Positions 2,350 through 25,113 of a stretch of 26,889 nucleotides of DNA are shown piece after piece. The notes under the pieces were generated by a model that was not told where the DNA came from, did not search any database, and saw only the letters and a list, made by a program, of their open reading frames with translations. The position numbers and the translations under genes were made by a program. The stretch covers positions 1-26,889 of the IMG/VR virus record IMGVR_UViG_3300037584_000110. The stretch is one strand, 5' to 3'. Numbering within the stretch: position 1 is the stretch's first letter; the number at the start of each line of letters is the position of its first letter. The DNA comes from a virus.

Positions 2350-2605
2350 AGAGTTGATGAAAGACGCTTTAGAAGAATTTGTCGATAGGTTGCCAGATCA
2401 TATCAACAATACTGAAGCTGCTTGGATAATTTTCAACATTCTTTTGTCGCGTGAAAAGTTAGATAACTGGGGAAAAATAAACAGACTGACAATTGCTAAC
2501 ATTGCAGAGTTTTTTATTGAACAGGCATTTTCAGCAGAAGAGTTAGCTCAAACAGAAGCAAAGATGTTTTTGGAAAAAATAGTGAAGGAGCATAAAGCAA
2601 AATGA
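2336..2605 (+). CDS. Small helical unknown protein (89 aa)
   Basis: This acidic, probably all-helical protein opens MGMREELMKDALEEF. The ATG at 2336 lies within the end of the nuclease gene and follows GGAAGG; ATG 2342 is an alternative start. It overlaps the helicase gene by ATGA (2602-2605). No family is recognised. Its place between nuclease and helicase suggests an accessory role in the same DNA-processing pathway, which is inference from position only. Confidence 0.6.
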   Translation: MGMREELMKDALEEFVDRLPDHINNTEAAWIIFNILLSREKLDNWGKINRLTIANIAEFFIEQAFSAEELAQTEAKMFLEKIVKEHKAK

Positions 2606-4242
2606 CTTTCGAACTTCGTGATTATCAAAAAGATGCCATTGATGGGCTGTACAATTACTGGGCGCAGAAGAAAGGGGAAAACCCACTGATCGTTGCGCCG
2701 ACTGGATCTGGCAAGACAGCGATCATTGCTAAGATGGTGCAAGACGCCATGAGCTTTCCAAATACCAGAGTGCTGGTTTTAGCCCACGTTAAGGAGCTGC
2801 TGGAGCAAGGAGCTTCAGGTTTGAAAAAGTTGTATCCAGAGGCTGATTTTGGCTTCTACAGCGCGTCTTTGAAAGAGAAGGATCTGACTAAGCCAATTAC
2901 CTTTGGCGGCATCCAGAGTATATACAAACGTGCATACGAGATGGTTCCAGCTCCAGACTTGGTGATTATCGATGAGGCGCATATGCTGCCACCTAAAACG
3001 ACCACACGCTATGGTCGATTTATCGATGACTTGAAACAGTGCAATCCAGACGTAAAAATTGTTGGACTGACGGCCACGCCATATCGATTGAGTTCAGGAT
3101 ATTTGCACAAGGGCGAAGGCGCAATCTTTGATGGCATTGCTTATGATATTCCTGTTACCATGCTTATGGATCAGGGTTATCTAGCTCCAGTTATCAGTAA
3201 AGGTGGCATGAAGCAGATCGACCTGACCAATGTGAAGAAACGAGGTGGTGAGTTTGTTGAAAGCGATTTGGCTGTTGCTGCGTCTGATCCTGAACTGGTG
3301 CGTAAAACAGTTGAAGAAATTGTTACGCTTGGAGCCAATCGTAAAAGTTGGCTGATCTTTGCCAGTGGCATTGACCATGCAAATATGTTGGAGTCTGAGT
3401 TTTTTGATCACATGATCGACTGCGAAGTTTTGACTGGTGAAGACAGTCAGAAAGATCGCGCATCGAAGATCGAAAGATTTAAGAACGGTAGCCTTCGATG
3501 TTTGGTAAACGTGAATGTTTTGACTACTGGGTTCGATGCGCCGAATGTTGATTTGATTGGTCTGGTTCGAGCGACAGCATCGACAGGTTTATATGTCCAG
3601 ATCATTGGGCGTGGCACTCGAACATTTGAAGGCAAAGAAAATTGTCTGGTTTTAGATTATGGTCAGAATGTCGAGCGGCATGGGTTTATCGATAAAGTAA
3701 AACCAGAACGTGATGACCGGGGCGATGGTGATGGCGAAGCGCCGATCAAGACTTGTCCTAAGTGTCAGACTCATTTGGCTATTGCTTGTTTGATTTGTCC
3801 TGAATGTGGGCATGAGTTTCCACCACCCACGCTGAACCACGCAAGTAAGAGTTACGATGGCGCAATGATTTCGACACAAGTAAAGCCTGAATGGTTTGAC
3901 GTAGAAAGCGTGACGTACAGGCGCTGGCAGAAGGCTGGGAAGCCTGACAGTGTGAGAGTGACGTATCACTATGGCTTTTTCAAAGAGACATCTGAGTGGC
4001 TGTGTCCTGATCATGGTGGCTATGCCACGACTAAATACATGCAGCGCAAACCACAGCTTGGTGCAAAAGCAAAAACCACAAACGAAGCAATGGATGAATG
4101 CCAAAGCTGGAACAAGCCTAGCCGCATTCAAGTAAAGCCTGATGGCAAATACGAAAGAATTGTGAGGTTCGATTATGAGAAACGTGAGAAGAAGGAAAAC
4201 GTCATCCACGTTGATTTCAGTCTCGAAGAAATACCCTTCTGA
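2602..4242 (+). CDS. DEAH-box SF2 helicase with zinc ribbon
   Basis: This 546-aa protein carries the full set of SF2 helicase motifs: a Q-like LRDYQKDAI, Walker A APTGSGKT (32-39), DEAH (124-127), TAT (157-159), TTGFDAP (308-314) and motif VI QIIGRGTR (333-340). This is the RecG/UvrB/RAD25-like phage helicase type. CPKC (385-388) and CPEC (399-402) form a rubredoxin-like zinc ribbon after the motor. The C-terminal 130 residues contain a WLCPDHGGYA segment and are of unknown function. It probably unwinds or remodels DNA during phage replication or recombination. The start is coupled to the previous gene by ATGA, and the end overlaps the VRR-NUC gene by 68 bases. Confidence 0.9.
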   Translation: MTFELRDYQKDAIDGLYNYWAQKKGENPLIVAPTGSGKTAIIAKMVQDAMSFPNTRVLVLAHVKELLEQGASGLKKLYPEADFGFYSASLKEKDLTKPITFGGIQSIYKRAYEMVPAPDLVIIDEAHMLPPKTTTRYGRFIDDLKQCNPDVKIVGLTATPYRLSSGYLHKGEGAIFDGIAYDIPVTMLMDQGYLAPVISKGGMKQIDLTNVKKRGGEFVESDLAVAASDPELVRKTVEEIVTLGANRKSWLIFASGIDHANMLESEFFDHMIDCEVLTGEDSQKDRASKIERFKNGSLRCLVNVNVLTTGFDAPNVDLIGLVRATASTGLYVQIIGRGTRTFEGKENCLVLDYGQNVERHGFIDKVKPERDDRGDGDGEAPIKTCPKCQTHLAIACLICPECGHEFPPPTLNHASKSYDGAMISTQVKPEWFDVESVTYRRWQKAGKPDSVRVTYHYGFFKETSEWLCPDHGGYATTKYMQRKPQLGAKAKTTNEAMDECQSWNKPSRIQVKPDGKYERIVRFDYEKREKKENVIHVDFSLEEIPF

Positions 4243-4988: not shown

Positions 4989-5034
4989 TTGTAATCTATG
5001 ACAGATGTCATATATGTAAGTTATAGAGAGAGAG
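4989..5034 (+). promoter_or_regulatory. Repeated promoter/operator element, copy 1
   Basis: TTGTAATCTATGACA is followed by an inverted repeat, TATGACA-GA-TGTCATA (4997-5012), an AT-rich stretch with a possible -10 (TATGTA, 5013-5018) and a GAGAGAG leader. TTGTAA (4989-4994) could be the -35, with 18 bases to TATGTA. The palindrome lies between the two boxes, where a repressor would block polymerase. Two further copies at 5744 and 6565 support it. It precedes the 5048 gene by 59 bases (first T to ATG). Confidence 0.75.
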
Positions 5035-5047
5035 AAAGGAAACTAAA

Positions 5048-5398
5048 ATGAAAATCATCGTACAACATTCAGAGAGCAACCGCGATGGCGAAATTACTGG
5101 ATATACAAATGTAGCAGAAGTTAACGCATCACGCTTTGAAGACGTAGATCAGGCACTTGAGTATGCTTACCGTTACACAAACAACGTCATGGGTTCTTGG
5201 TCTATTAAGAAAGAATTTTTACCAATGCGTGATGGTGGCGAAATGCCAAACGGCGATTACAATGACGATGTTACCGTACTGCGTCATCGTCCAGATGGCA
5301 TGGGTCAAAGATCATCGATGATGGGTGATCGCATGATTGTTAACGAAAAAACTTATGAAGTTGCAGCGTTTGGTTTCAAAATGATGGAGGCAGTGTAA
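5048..5398 (+). CDS. Unknown phage protein (116 aa), cassette 1
   Basis: The ATG at 5048 follows AAAGGAAA about 7 bases upstream. The protein opens MKIIVQHSESNRDGE, has a strand-helix-strand look, a DVDQALEYAYRYTNN helix and an acidic/polar middle. No family is recognised and no catalytic pattern is evident. It is the first gene after the copy 1 promoter element, and its stop overlaps the next ATG (TAATG), so the two are co-translated. Position and promoter sharing suggest an early or accessory function, which is inference. Confidence 0.65.
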   Translation: MKIIVQHSESNRDGEITGYTNVAEVNASRFEDVDQALEYAYRYTNNVMGSWSIKKEFLPMRDGGEMPNGDYNDDVTVLRHRPDGMGQRSSMMGDRMIVNEKTYEVAAFGFKMMEAV

Positions 5399-5718
5399 TG
5401 AGACTATATCAAAACAGTAAAGGCCAATGGTTTGGCACACAGGCAGACGCTCGCCGCAATTCACCAAGAGACTGGCGCGAAGTTGAAGTACCGACATCGA
5501 AACAGGATCTGCTGAACTGGCTAAACGAAAACAAAGTTGGGGGCATTCAGCAGAACGCCCCAGAGCCTCACCCAGCGCCAGAGCCAAAGTCTGAGCTGCT
5601 GTCGCCCCACGCAGCAAGTTGGGTTGCATGGGCGCTCGACAAGCTCAAGCGCGGCAACAAAAAAGATGCCGAAGAAATGCTTATAAAAGGCTTAAAGATT
5701 CAAAAGGAGTGGGTATAA
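5398..5718 (+). CDS. Unknown phage protein (106 aa), cassette 1
   Basis: The gene is coupled to the preceding one by TAATG at 5396-5400. The N-terminus (MRLYQNSKGQWFGTQADAR) followed by RDWREVEVPTSKQDLLNWLN resembles a motif found in small marine phage proteins that pair a short beta region with a WREVEVPT...L..WLN helix. A proline-rich linker (about 53-65) leads to a C-terminal helical segment (WVAWALDKLKRGNKKDAEEML). Function is unknown. The stop codon is embedded in the loop of the terminator that closes cassette 1. Confidence 0.65.
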   Translation: MRLYQNSKGQWFGTQADARRNSPRDWREVEVPTSKQDLLNWLNENKVGGIQQNAPEPHPAPEPKSELLSPHAASWVAWALDKLKRGNKKDAEEMLIKGLKIQKEWV

Positions 5719-5733
5719 CACCCACTTTTTTTT
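5708..5733 (+). terminator. Intrinsic terminator overlapping a stop codon
   Basis: AGTGGGT (5708-5714) and ACCCACT (5720-5726) form a 7-bp stem around a 5-base loop that contains most of the upstream gene's TAA. Eight Ts follow (5726-5733). It cleanly separates cassette 1 from cassette 2. Confidence 0.88.
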
Positions 5734-5743
5734 CTTTGACCCC

Positions 5744-5790
5744 TTGTAATCTATGACAATCGTCATTATATAATAAGTATAGAGAGAGAG
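5744..5790 (+). promoter_or_regulatory. Repeated promoter/operator element, copy 2
   Basis: TTGTAATCTATGACA recurs, with TGAC (5754-5757) and GTCA (5762-5765) as the inverted arms, then TATATAATA (candidate -10 TATATA at 5767 or TATAAT at 5769; TTGTAA -35 at 17 or 19 bases) and TATAGAGAGAGAG. The first 15 bases are identical to copy 1, including the preceding CCCC. It lies directly after the cassette 1 terminator and drives the 5799 gene. Confidence 0.85.
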
Positions 5791-5798
5791 GAAACACT

Positions 5799-6527
5799 AT
5801 GAAAAATCTAAACATCAAACCAGTCAATCACGGCAAAACCAAAGCTGACAGAAATCGCTACTGTGGTCCAGCAGTCATCAGTTCCATCACTGGGATGGCT
5901 ACTGGTGAGGCATCACGATTGATCCGTCACGTTAGTGGACGCAAATCCATTAAAGGATCTTCAGTTCGTGAAGTCACAGACGCACTATCGATGTGTGGCA
6001 TCAAGAGCGAATACAAATCATTTGGCATGAAGCTGGGTCGCTCCACTGGCCCAACACTTGCTGGATGGCTCAAGGCCACAGTCAAAGAGCGAACTGCTGA
6101 TCGCGTGTTTCTGATCATCGCTGGTTGGCACTGGCAACTGGTTCAAGGTCGCCGCATTGTCTGTGGCATTCTTGGCAGTCCAACGTCTGTCCGTGACAAG
6201 CGTGTCAAGCGCAGAGCGCGTGTGGCAAACGTCTACGAGCTTCACTCCACTGGAGCAATCACAACGCCCACAGAGGCCAAAAAGCCTAAGAGCGTTGACA
6301 CTAACCGCAACTACCGTTCCAAGGCTCAGAGCCTTGCTAAGAAGCTGGGCATGGAGATCAGCATTGAGCCTAGTGGCTATGGAGATAATGCGTACTGGAT
6401 CGATTACGAAGGCGATTTCGACTACTCTCAAGAAGGTATAATTGACGGTCACTGCTCATACGATTGGCAAGAAGTGTTTTGGAAACTCCAAGAGATTGAA
6501 GAGTATCAGCAAAAAAAGGCAGCATAA
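5799..6527 (+). CDS. Candidate papain/C39-like cysteine peptidase fold protein
   Basis: A 242-aa protein. Near the N-terminus, NRYCGPAVISSITG puts C22 in the Cys-Gly-Pro-Ala context of C39/papain-like peptidases. About 90 residues later IIAGWHWQLVQG supplies H111 on a strand, in the position of the catalytic His. The third residue, usually Asp or Asn after the next strand, is not obvious (C122-G follows instead), so activity is uncertain. A basic linker (about 130-175) leads to an acidic, aromatic C-terminal region with IDYEGDFDYS. It stands alone between copy 2 of the promoter and a terminator. It could process a host or phage protein, or be an inactive relative. The fold call is inference from motif spacing. 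Confidence 0.6.
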   Translation: MKNLNIKPVNHGKTKADRNRYCGPAVISSITGMATGEASRLIRHVSGRKSIKGSSVREVTDALSMCGIKSEYKSFGMKLGRSTGPTLAGWLKATVKERTADRVFLIIAGWHWQLVQGRRIVCGILGSPTSVRDKRVKRRARVANVYELHSTGAITTPTEAKKPKSVDTNRNYRSKAQSLAKKLGMEISIEPSGYGDNAYWIDYEGDFDYSQEGIIDGHCSYDWQEVFWKLQEIEEYQQKKAA

Positions 6528-6532
6528 AAATT

Positions 6533-6553
6533 GAGGCTTCGGCCTCTTTTTTT
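6533..6553 (+). terminator. Intrinsic terminator with TTCG tetraloop
   Basis: GAGGC (6533-6537), TTCG loop, GCCTC (6542-6546), then seven Ts (6547-6553). It begins 5 bases after the stop of the 5799 gene and closes cassette 2. Confidence 0.9.
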
Positions 6554-6564
6554 ATTTCTTGCTA

Positions 6565-6609
6565 TTGTAATCTGTGACAACTGTCATTATATAATAGGTA
6601 TAGAGAGAG
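6565..6609 (+). promoter_or_regulatory. Repeated promoter/operator element, copy 3
   Basis: TTGTAATCTGTGACA with inverted arms TGACA (6575-6579) and TGTCA (6582-6586), then TATATAATA and GGTATAGAGAGAGG. From GTCATT through TATAGAGAGAG it matches copy 2 with one base change. First T to ATG is 54 bases, against 55 in copy 2. Confidence 0.85.
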
Positions 6610-6618
6610 GAAATTAAC

Positions 6619-7188
6619 ATGGCATATAACCCAACACACGAATATGAGCATAACTACTACCCTTCAATTGAAGCTCGCAAAATAGCTAACGCTGCCAATA
6701 CCAAGCGCAAAAACTGGATTGCTACTGATGATCGCGCAGAAGAAATCATCGAATTTGTTTCTGATTACGATTCAGATGGCGAAGGTTTTTTTTCAGCTTG
6801 TGCAAAAGGTATTGAGAAGTTTGGATCGCTTACACCTAACATGCGTAACGCTATGGTTAAGGTGTTGGACAAACGTGCCGCACAAGCCGCTGAGTGGGCT
6901 ACCAGAGATGGCAAGTGCGAGTTTGTTGGCACAGTGGGCGAGCGTCAAGCTTTCGCAGTCACAGTGAAGCATATCGTGGAGCTAGAAGGCATGTATGGCA
7001 TCTCATACCTTCACATCTGCCGTGACGCTGATGACAACGTAATCATCTACAAAGGCACACAATACTGGGATAAAGGCGCTCAAGTGACTTTCATGGCCAA
7101 AGTAAAAGATCATGGCGTCCGTGATGGTGTAAAGCAAACTATCATCCAGCGCCCCACAAAAGTAAAAGTAAATGGGGAGGATTACTGA
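6619..7188 (+). CDS. Unknown phage protein (189 aa), cassette 3
   Basis: The ATG at 6619 follows GAGAGAGG. The N-terminal half is mixed and acidic (YDSDGEGFF) with a helix around ALDKRAAQAAEWA-like sequence. From about residue 103 there is a beta-rich run: FVGTVGERQAF, YGISYLHICRDADDN, IYKGTQYWDKGAQVTFMAKVKDHG, QTIIQRP. This pattern recurs in phage proteins of unknown role and could be an OB-like or other small beta domain (inference). It is the only clear gene of cassette 3 and is followed within 9 bases by the end of the opposing transcription unit, with no visible terminator. Confidence 0.7.
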   Translation: MAYNPTHEYEHNYYPSIEARKIANAANTKRKNWIATDDRAEEIIEFVSDYDSDGEGFFSACAKGIEKFGSLTPNMRNAMVKVLDKRAAQAAEWATRDGKCEFVGTVGERQAFAVTVKHIVELEGMYGISYLHICRDADDNVIIYKGTQYWDKGAQVTFMAKVKDHGVRDGVKQTIIQRPTKVKVNGEDY

Positions 7189-23552: not shown

Positions 23553-24178
23553 TATAAGCCTCCGTTATATTCTGCTGCGTAGTCTCGCTGCATCTCTTGT
23601 ACAAATAATTGTACTGCTTCGTCAAATTGTGTCTTATAAAGCGTCAAAGTTTCTCCAGCTTTTAAAAAGGCTGATGCTTCGTAAAGACACGCTGCTAATA
23701 ACACATTTTCTGCGTTATCTCCAACCCAAGTATTTGCATTACTTGAACTCAAGCCTGTTTCTGGTGCGATAAAATCGACCTGATAAGTTGATGTTGTAGC
23801 ATCTGGAGTTGGCGCAACAGTAATAGTTGTTCCTCCAATAGCTGCTGTTTTAGTGCTATACATTTCTGGAACGCCTTGAGTTGTGGCGTTTGGTGCGTAA
23901 TCACGCAAATAAGAATCAACTCTGTGATTTAAATAAGATACTACGTTTGATGTAATAATTGAAACTTGTCTAATCATTCTTGCAGATGGCACAACATAAT
24001 CTGATGTGCCTTGCACAAGGCTTGCTGATGTTGTTTTTCTAAAGCATGGCAAATTTGGCAAACGCTGAAATATCATTTCTTCAGCTTGTCCTATAATTTG
24101 ATCAATAGATGCCGAAAGCTCTGTGCTATCGTCTTCTAAGAAGTTTTGAATATTACTTACTAATTGTGTGTAATTCAT
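23552..24178 (-). CDS. SU10-type head-tail adaptor protein (208 aa)
   Basis: Opens MNYTQLVSNIQNFLEDDSTE, with helix IDQIIGQAEEMIFQRLPNLP near residue 26-46, then a beta section (SYLNHRVDSYLRDY, TTITVAPTP) and a terminal helix. This matches the head-tail connector / SU10 adaptor-like family that links the portal to the tail. Length is normal for the family. ATG overlaps the previous stop (TAATG). In order it follows the gp4-like and 20-residue-repeat proteins, which is typical of neck assembly genes. Confidence 0.75.
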   Translation of the reverse strand: MNYTQLVSNIQNFLEDDSTELSASIDQIIGQAEEMIFQRLPNLPCFRKTTSASLVQGTSDYVVPSARMIRQVSIITSNVVSYLNHRVDSYLRDYAPNATTQGVPEMYSTKTAAIGGTTITVAPTPDATTSTYQVDFIAPETGLSSSNANTWVGDNAENVLLAACLYEASAFLKAGETLTLYKTQFDEAVQLFVQEMQRDYAAEYNGGL

Positions 24179-25113
24179 TAACCATTACCCCACGATCCAC
24201 TATTCCACGCATTATTACCAAATCCAACTGCTGGCTGAACAACACTTCCATCACCAATTGCACCTGTACCAGCCAAGCCTGTTTCGGATATTTCAGATTC
24301 TGCAACTTCAGTTCCTGTTGCACCAACACCACCAAGACCAGTAACTGGATCAACAATTACATTAAAATCACTTCCAGCGCCAGAACCAATAATATGAACA
24401 GCTCCAGTGCCAGCTACACCTGATATTTCTAAGTCTTGTTCAGGCGTTGATGATCCAATAGCGCCAGTTCCAGCCACGCCTGTGATGGGTTGTTCTTGTT
24501 CAGGCGCTAATGTTCCAATAGCCCCAGTACCAGCTACGCCTGATACATCAAAGTCTTGTTCAACTGTTGATGATCCAATAGCACCTGTGCCAGCCAATCC
24601 TGTTACTGGTGTGGCAAAGATCAGATCGCCAAGTGCGCCAGTTCCAGCAACGCCTGTGACATTTATATCAAAAGAAATAACAACTGAAGAAGATCCAATT
24701 GCCCCTGTGCCAGTTGCTGGATTTATTGCTGGATTTGGAAAGGATGTGCCTACAGCGCCTGTACCAGCCACTCCAGTAACTGAAACTTCCATTTCTATAA
24801 AAAGACCAGTTGAGCCAACAGTTCCAAGGCCATGTATACCCACTGGAGGGCGCTGACGAGGATCTAAAAAAATGTCATAATTATAACCTACAAAAAACTC
24901 TACGTTTTCTGGATCATTGTCTGGGCGTGGATTAAATAGTGCAGTTGCGTCTACAACATTTTTAGCTGGCGTTAACTGTGGTTGCTTTGGCTCCCAATCA
25001 TCTGGAGCGACACGCAATCCATCCCAAGTTGTTTTTAGGTCAGTGTATTTGACCCTCAAACCACTTCTGTCACTTATTGCTAGAGATTTTTTTCCTCTTG
25101 CAAATTTACCCAT
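24178..25113 (-). CDS. Structural protein with nine 20-residue GTGA repeats (311 aa)
   Basis: N-terminal domain (about 1-85) opens MGKFARGKKSLAISDRSGLR and contains KQPQLTPAKN, as in many marine phage proteins of the neck region. Residues about 111-290 are nine repeats of the form V(T/S)G(V/L)AGTGA(I/V)G plus a 9-10-residue variable stretch, spacing about 20. The C-terminus is W/G/N-rich (NNAWNSGSWGNG). The repeats should form a beta-roll or fibrous stalk. Coupled to flanking genes by TAATG at both ends. Confidence 0.75.
   Translation of the reverse strand: MGKFARGKKSLAISDRSGLRVKYTDLKTTWDGLRVAPDDWEPKQPQLTPAKNVVDATALFNPRPDNDPENVEFFVGYNYDIFLDPRQRPPVGIHGLGTVGSTGLFIEMEVSVTGVAGTGAVGTSFPNPAINPATGTGAIGSSSVVISFDINVTGVAGTGALGDLIFATPVTGLAGTGAIGSSTVEQDFDVSGVAGTGAIGTLAPEQEQPITGVAGTGAIGSSTPEQDLEISGVAGTGAVHIIGSGAGSDFNVIVDPVTGLGGVGATGTEVAESEISETGLAGTGAIGDGSVVQPAVGFGNNAWNSGSWGNG
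24244..24783 (-). repeat. Nine tandem ~60-base repeats (20-residue GTGA modules)
   Basis: The module core is TGVAGTGAIGSS with variable tails; copies with near-identical tails (EQDFD, EQEQP, EQDLE) are the middle ones, suggesting recent expansion by unequal exchange. Confidence 0.85.

Follow-up and report, generated by a model that had tools for sequence, protein, structure and literature searches.

Sigma70-type promoters with a palindromic spacer, and a candidate MarR-like reader, in CRP-901-type roseophages

Three neighbouring gene cassettes of a phage of Roseobacter open with nearly the same sequence, which raises the question of what this shared element is, which protein might read it and how it came to stand before unrelated genes. 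The window, i.e. the whole stretch of DNA analysed here (26,889 nucleotides), is a 26.9 kb IMG/VR fragment of a CRP-901/CRP-902-type phage (Roseobacter CHAB-I-5 hosts), beginning 3' of the ATPase gene and finishing within the structural genes. One structural protein (24178-25113) carries many (V/I)TG(V/L)AGTGAIG unit repeats. The nearest described relatives are the Roseobacter phages CRP-901 and CRP-902, host FZCC0083, which match the window at 82-84% over the matched half of its first 12 kb. Phages of this type are described as globally distributed and abundant at sea; their genome paper reports MarR and helix-turn-helix genes, and promoters go unmentioned (PMC10149686). Phage contigs of CRP-901 type were also found inside the bacterial assemblies Rhodobacteraceae SB2 and UBA12010 (L104, L075), a hint as to the host.

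The promoter-operator element and the cassettes behind it

The features of the three copies are as follows.
4989-4994, +: copy 1, -35 TTGTAA (TTG invariant in 79 distinct elements)
4999-5010, +: copy 1, palindrome TGACA-GA-TGTCA, candidate operator
5011-5016, +: copy 1, -10 TATATG, abutting the palindrome
5024-5047, +: copy 1, leader TAGAGAGAGAG with Shine-Dalgarno sequence; predicted +1 at A5025/G5026
5048-5398, +: cassette 1, first gene (116 aa, family F10)
5398-5718, +: cassette 1, second gene (106 aa, homologue of CRP-902 gp27)
5708-5734, +: intrinsic terminator, hairpin then T8, overlapping the end of cassette 1
5744-5749, +: copy 2, -35 TTGTAA
5754-5765, +: copy 2, palindrome TGACA-AT-CGTCA, one mismatch
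5767-5772, +: copy 2, -10 TATATA
5780-5798, +: copy 2, leader TAGAGAGAGAGG
5799-6527, +: cassette 2, single gene (242 aa, family F2)
6533-6553, +: intrinsic terminator GAGGCTTCGGCCTC then T7
6565-6570, +: copy 3, -35 TTGTAA
6575-6586, +: copy 3, palindrome TGACA-AC-TGTCA
6588-6593, +: copy 3, -10 TATATA
6601-6618, +: copy 3, leader TAGAGAGAGG
6619-7188, +: cassette 3, single gene (189 aa, family F0), last before the opposing structural block

The preliminary description, made from the letters of the window, had placed three such elements here, and its account of them held: all three copies were present, the palindromes of copies 1 and 3 were perfect and that of copy 2 carried one mismatch, TTG and ATG lay 59, 55 and 54 bases apart, intrinsic terminators stood directly before copies 2 and 3 (5708-5726 then T8; 6533-6546 then T7), and the genes that followed belonged to three separate protein families. 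The terminator at 5708-5726 was read from the sequence, the scanner giving a stem on the minus strand only, and no hairpin-plus-T-run terminator was found ahead of copy 1. TTGTAATCTRTGACANNNGTCAT occurred exactly three times in the record and its reversed control pattern not at all; a 45-base version of the element matched copies 2 and 3 exactly and was found in none of 100 shuffles. The earlier reading had missed that the palindrome sits exactly between the -35 and the -10, abutting the latter, and that the leader begins at the expected +1.

Related phages carried the same element. Pattern scans of viral contigs, joined by loci collected later, gave 107 sites and at least 79 distinct elements (as 44-mers), the window copies being members of the same family. 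Their consensus is TTGYAATCT-N-TGMCA-NN-TGKCA-TATAT followed by the TAGAGAGAGAGG leader, with TTG 53-59 bases from the start codon at 103/107 sites. Across the 79 elements TTG, A5 and C14 were invariant and A6, T7, T9 and A15 nearly so; positions 1-9 and 11-15 were nearly fixed, save for T/C at 4, A/C at 13 and a few C8/G12 variants, and positions 10, 16 and 17 varied freely. Both arms (TGMCA/TGKCA) were conserved, the second less strictly, and arm positions 13/20 shifted jointly: 58 elements have A-T there and 9 have C-G. With the leader as anchor, the -10 columns read T72 A76 T74 A57 T78 of 79, and the leader itself was near-fixed from the T of TAG onward (consensus TAGAGAGAGAGGAA). TTG and TAG were 35 or 36 bases apart in 76/79 elements, with a full spread of 34-38. 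CRP-901 and CRP-902 each possessed four near-exact copies between the VRR-nuclease gene and the opposing structural block, plus one or two more divergent copies on the opposite strand of the left arm. In one left-arm copy, TTGCAATCTTTGCCAGATGGCATATATGTTAGTTATAGAGAGAGAG, both palindrome arms had changed together (TGCCA-GA-TGGCA).

This is the layout of a sigma70-type promoter: a -35 TTGYAA, a spacer of 16-17 bp and a -10 TATAT, with the palindrome filling the spacer. The -10 deviates from TATAAT and the copies were not reported by a consensus promoter scanner. The element is very probably a family of sigma70-type promoters, from which transcription should start at TAGAG. By its position and conservation, the palindrome is likely to be an operator, and a DNA-binding protein is its expected reader because the conserved dyad sits upstream of the predicted start. 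A search of the window against Rfam gave no match, and an RNA element is unlikely given this result, the position of the palindrome upstream of the predicted start and its loop of only 2 bases.

Twenty-two protein families followed the element at the 107 sites, in many orders, including F3>F5>F7>F0, F3>F2>F0, F6>F2>F0 and F2>F6>F15, as well as F10>F2 at a locus whose end cuts off the remainder. The order in the window is F10>F2>F0, and F0, where present, was nearly always last. A hairpin plus T-run preceded 20/107 sites, against 0.7 expected from shuffles. The idea of promoter-operator units set before unrelated, exchangeable genes was thereby borne out, but the proposed one-by-one addition oversimplifies their history: the promoter stays, and the cassettes behind it are shuffled, lost or exchanged for others. 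Relatives of the F0 protein of the window (6619-7188) occurred in 78 phage records, including 253 kb Vibrio phages and Rhizobium, Agrobacterium and Burkholderia phages. F2 proteins, such as that of the window (5799-6527), share a CGP/CGVxA motif and, further along, a W/SH motif, and in these resemble papain-like or C39-like cysteine peptidases; the window protein had no Pfam and no PHROG match.

A MarR-like candidate reader in the left arm

That no regulator gene was visible in the window proved to be an artefact of the fragment. In complete relatives, a MarR-like protein (gp02) and a Cro-like protein (gp12) are encoded at the other end of the genome; the leftward early operon of CRP-901/902, from the primase-polymerase gene to gp01, lies with its regulators outside the window. 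gp02 is a 109-aa MarR-fold protein of CRP-901/902, and the element copies at the opposite genome end head its gene group.

Left arms were gathered with the primase-polymerase as query, giving 80 loci with left arms of varied length. Among records whose left arm is complete, gp02 was present in 12/12 that have the element and in 0/17 sister records, a co-occurrence that counts as one event because the gp02 phages form a single clade, with one change on the tree. A whole-record search of 16 sister records gave no gp02 match. When the search was started from gp02 and restricted to loci with 1.8 kb or more of upstream sequence, the element was found on the same strand, 0.5-1.6 kb ahead of gp02, in 22/22 loci, the arrangement to be expected if the gene group regulates itself. 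The structural model of gp02 (pLDDT 85.5) best matched MarR structures, with a Z of 11.0 to MarR 3bpx, and its putative recognition helix was conserved (S54, N57, R58, L60, H61). gp02 matched PHROG 9665, 'transcriptional regulator', at 2e-13 and scored at most 20.4 bits against Pfam PF01047, below the cut-off of 24.6. Z-DNA-binding ADAR domains, also matched in a search of the sequences of solved structures, were set aside as a generic winged-helix match. On these comparisons, gp02 is on balance the probable reader of the palindrome, and its position and family make repression likelier than activation. We infer that the phage of the window carries gp02 too, in a left arm outside the window.

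Distant MarR homologues (30-34% identity) were found without the element in T7-like roseophages, and the early regions of four phages with such homologues (CRP-113, -125, -227 and -361) were found to lack both the element and any similar operator in repeated copies; at this distance, they speak neither for nor against gp02. In the T7-like roseophage loci L418-L421, the distant gp02 homologue lies beside the integrase gene and before that of the RNA polymerase, and these phages have their own polymerase-type promoters, TTAGGTTGCACC. A stand-alone NrdR-like zinc ribbon (~61-66 aa, without the ATP cone) adjoins gp01/gp02 in most lineages (L302:10107-10292, L261:7834-8034) and is present, unannotated, in CRP-902 (601-798).

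Sister lineages and alternative readers

The preliminary description held that the shared-regulator idea would fail if relatives kept the genes and lacked the motif. Such relatives occur: upstream of orthologues of the 6619 gene, found by protein at 47 loci, the TGACA element was present in this clade and other sequences stood in its place elsewhere. The idea survives nonetheless, because several of the lineages without the motif repeat another spacer motif within their genomes, the replacing sequence being found two or three times per genome in some. In G001-G004, up to three places had TTGMTATACTAYATWYAGTATGCTAYATAATGTATGTAGAGAG-like promoters, whose dyad is ATACT-N6-AGTAT, G006/G021 had two copies with TTGCATTATKTGCWGGGG in common, and TTTACTCYCTATGCTACATACYATAT was shared between two copies in L351. 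No repeated element was found in the other sister records, so that in-genome spacer repeats are not universal. The skeleton of TTG, TATA and TAGAGAG was more or less retained in the sister promoters, with a differing spacer. Pairs of like promoter regions, each pair with its own spacer sequence, were also observed at L351:6045-6825 and at L369:5987 and 7157 (record G019).

Near gp01, other lineages encode different DNA-binding-like proteins, namely sigma4/alpha-CTD-like ones (L340, L317) and a D5-like helix-turn-helix protein (G001). Those at L340:11048-11629 and L317:9763-10227 combine a sigma-70 region 4-like HTH and a domain resembling the C-terminal one of RNA polymerase alpha, at the place of gp02, and may be the RNA polymerase genes counted in four metagenomic genomes by the CRP-901 paper. 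Tentatively, sister lineages may have swapped regulator and operators as a set, the regulon being rewired in concert by recombination. The gene near gp01 would then change between gp02, the sigma4/alpha-CTD-like protein and the D5-like HTH protein, and the spacer motif of the lineage would change with it; the -35, the -10, the leader and many of the driven genes would be retained. With like genes and unlike operators, these lineages offer a natural experiment on the joint change of a regulator and its sites.

Instead of gp02, another phage protein might read the palindrome (Cro-like gp12, gp09 or an unrecognised one), with gp02 acting elsewhere. Two further left-arm genes, gp09 and gp10 (L004:2242-2499, 2554-3108), are distributed like gp02 across the sampled phages, and gp12 matches HTH_3 above the cut-off. 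However, gp10 is a DNA methyltransferase, gp09 matched nothing in Pfam or PHROG, and gp12, counted over the complete left arms, was present in 12/12 records of the gp02 group and in 16/17 sister records; found in nearly all records of both groups, including lineages without the TGACA motif, it does not track the motif. The gp12-gp13 intergenic region moreover has a different inverted repeat, TTTACAG-N13-CTGTAAA. Another reader of this kind is unlikely. That repeat is conserved in the divergent gp12/gp13 region (L004:5591-5700, L005:5731-5852) and is the likely operator of gp12. Equally, strong host-polymerase promoters could have been duplicated and homogenised by recombination with no dedicated regulator behind them, a view favoured by copies that can be near-identical inside one genome and by a leader and -10 that are conserved as well as the palindrome. 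Yet conservation breaks at single positions (10, 16 and 17 are free between fixed arms), changes at arm positions 13/20 are often matched, and left-arm and right-arm copies are unlike in sequence with the dyad retained; homogenisation alone is improbable.

A host regulator might also bind the palindrome, the phage cassettes being plugged into a host regulon. The bare TGACANNTGTCA could be a host site, the known hosts are all Roseobacter relatives, and partly different hosts are predicted for members of the type (PMC10149686). Against this, the motif tracks the phage lineage and gp02, and a loose 18-base pattern run against bacterial genomes gave essentially chance hits, save for two phage contigs. 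In the SB2 genome, which we take to be that of a CHAB-I-5 strain, three perfect elements were found, all on one 6.6 kb phage contig; the remainder had 3-mismatch hits only, and use of the whole element by the host was not found there. We consider a host reader quite unlikely. By far the least probable reading is that the elements are T7-like promoters of a phage single-subunit RNA polymerase, suggested by a conserved initial sequence, TATAGAGAG, that resembles the start of T7/SP6 promoters. The spacing of the blocks varies (TTG-to-TAG 34-38) where a rigid block of ~23 bp would be expected, the promoters of T7-like roseophages are quite unlike these, and CRP-901/902 have no RNA polymerase gene (PMC10149686). 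A profile search for RNA polymerase (PF00940) gave no match, and its controls were silent too, so it adds nothing.

A probable coordinated early promoter set and its known parallels

The element copies probably form a coordinately regulated set of early promoters, repressed by gp02, which would also regulate itself. For the system overall, we lean towards sigma70-type promoters with an operator in the spacer that gp02 shuts jointly. Host RNA polymerase would read these promoters early, yielding the small cassette proteins; a gp02 dimer would then bind TGMCA-NN-TGKCA next to the -10 and turn off the whole set together, and would silence its own gene group, headed by a copy of the element. This reading rests on comparison: the anatomy of the promoter and its conservation, the gene shuffling behind it, a gp02 that has the MarR fold and occurs in the same phages as the element, and an element copy that lies upstream of the gp02 gene. 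The element maps co-regulated, mostly uncharacterised early genes, together with a 109-aa candidate switch protein, and the motif can serve as a marker of such cassettes in metagenomes.

gp02 shares its fold and winged helix with MarR-family repressors (MarR, SlyA, MepR), and many MarR systems likewise have a palindrome over the promoter and a copy of the site in front of the genes that include the regulator's own; unlike the solved members, gp02 is ~30 residues shorter and phage-borne. Among the papers searched, none on MarR-controlled phage promoter sets was found. The immediate-early promoters of T4 are many alike, strong sigma70 promoters before small, dispensable host-takeover genes and in this resemble the present set. 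They have no shared spacer operator and are shut off via changes to the host polymerase, whereas here a predicted spacer operator is common to the copies. Lambdoid morons are genes with their own promoter and terminator that are gained and lost among related phages. Their promoters are individual, whereas one promoter-operator is common to unrelated cassettes here; of the moron traits, an own promoter and gain and loss were seen, with an upstream terminator at 20/107 sites. Stoperators are asymmetric 13 bp stops along the transcription units of temperate phages, whereas the present sites are palindromes inside promoters, in a phage without an annotated integrase. In Cluster A mycobacteriophages, they are short sites dispersed over one genome with a role in transcription regulation (PMC3203893).

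The nearest published parallel is the SAS/ESAS of Cluster K mycobacteriophages (PMC3203893). There, as here, each genome has many copies, placed in its non-structural part ahead of genes from different families, with inverted repeats beside the gene start that are absent from the host, and the regulator is not proven (PMC3203893). An SAS is a sequence of 13 bp at the ribosome site, GGGATAGGAGCCC, and is preceded by two repeats of 17 bp (PMC3203893), whereas the present element has a 12 bp palindrome within the -35/-10 spacer, the leader described above and a candidate regulator; the 13 bp sequence was not found in it, and multi-copy inverted repeats before different gene families were. The repeat consensus varies among Cluster K subclusters (PMC3203893), whereas the spacer motifs of the sister lineages here are unrelated instead of differing at a few positions. 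The spacer-operator promoter set of CRP-901-type phages is a variant on the SAS/ESAS-type theme, to be compared with that of Cluster K.
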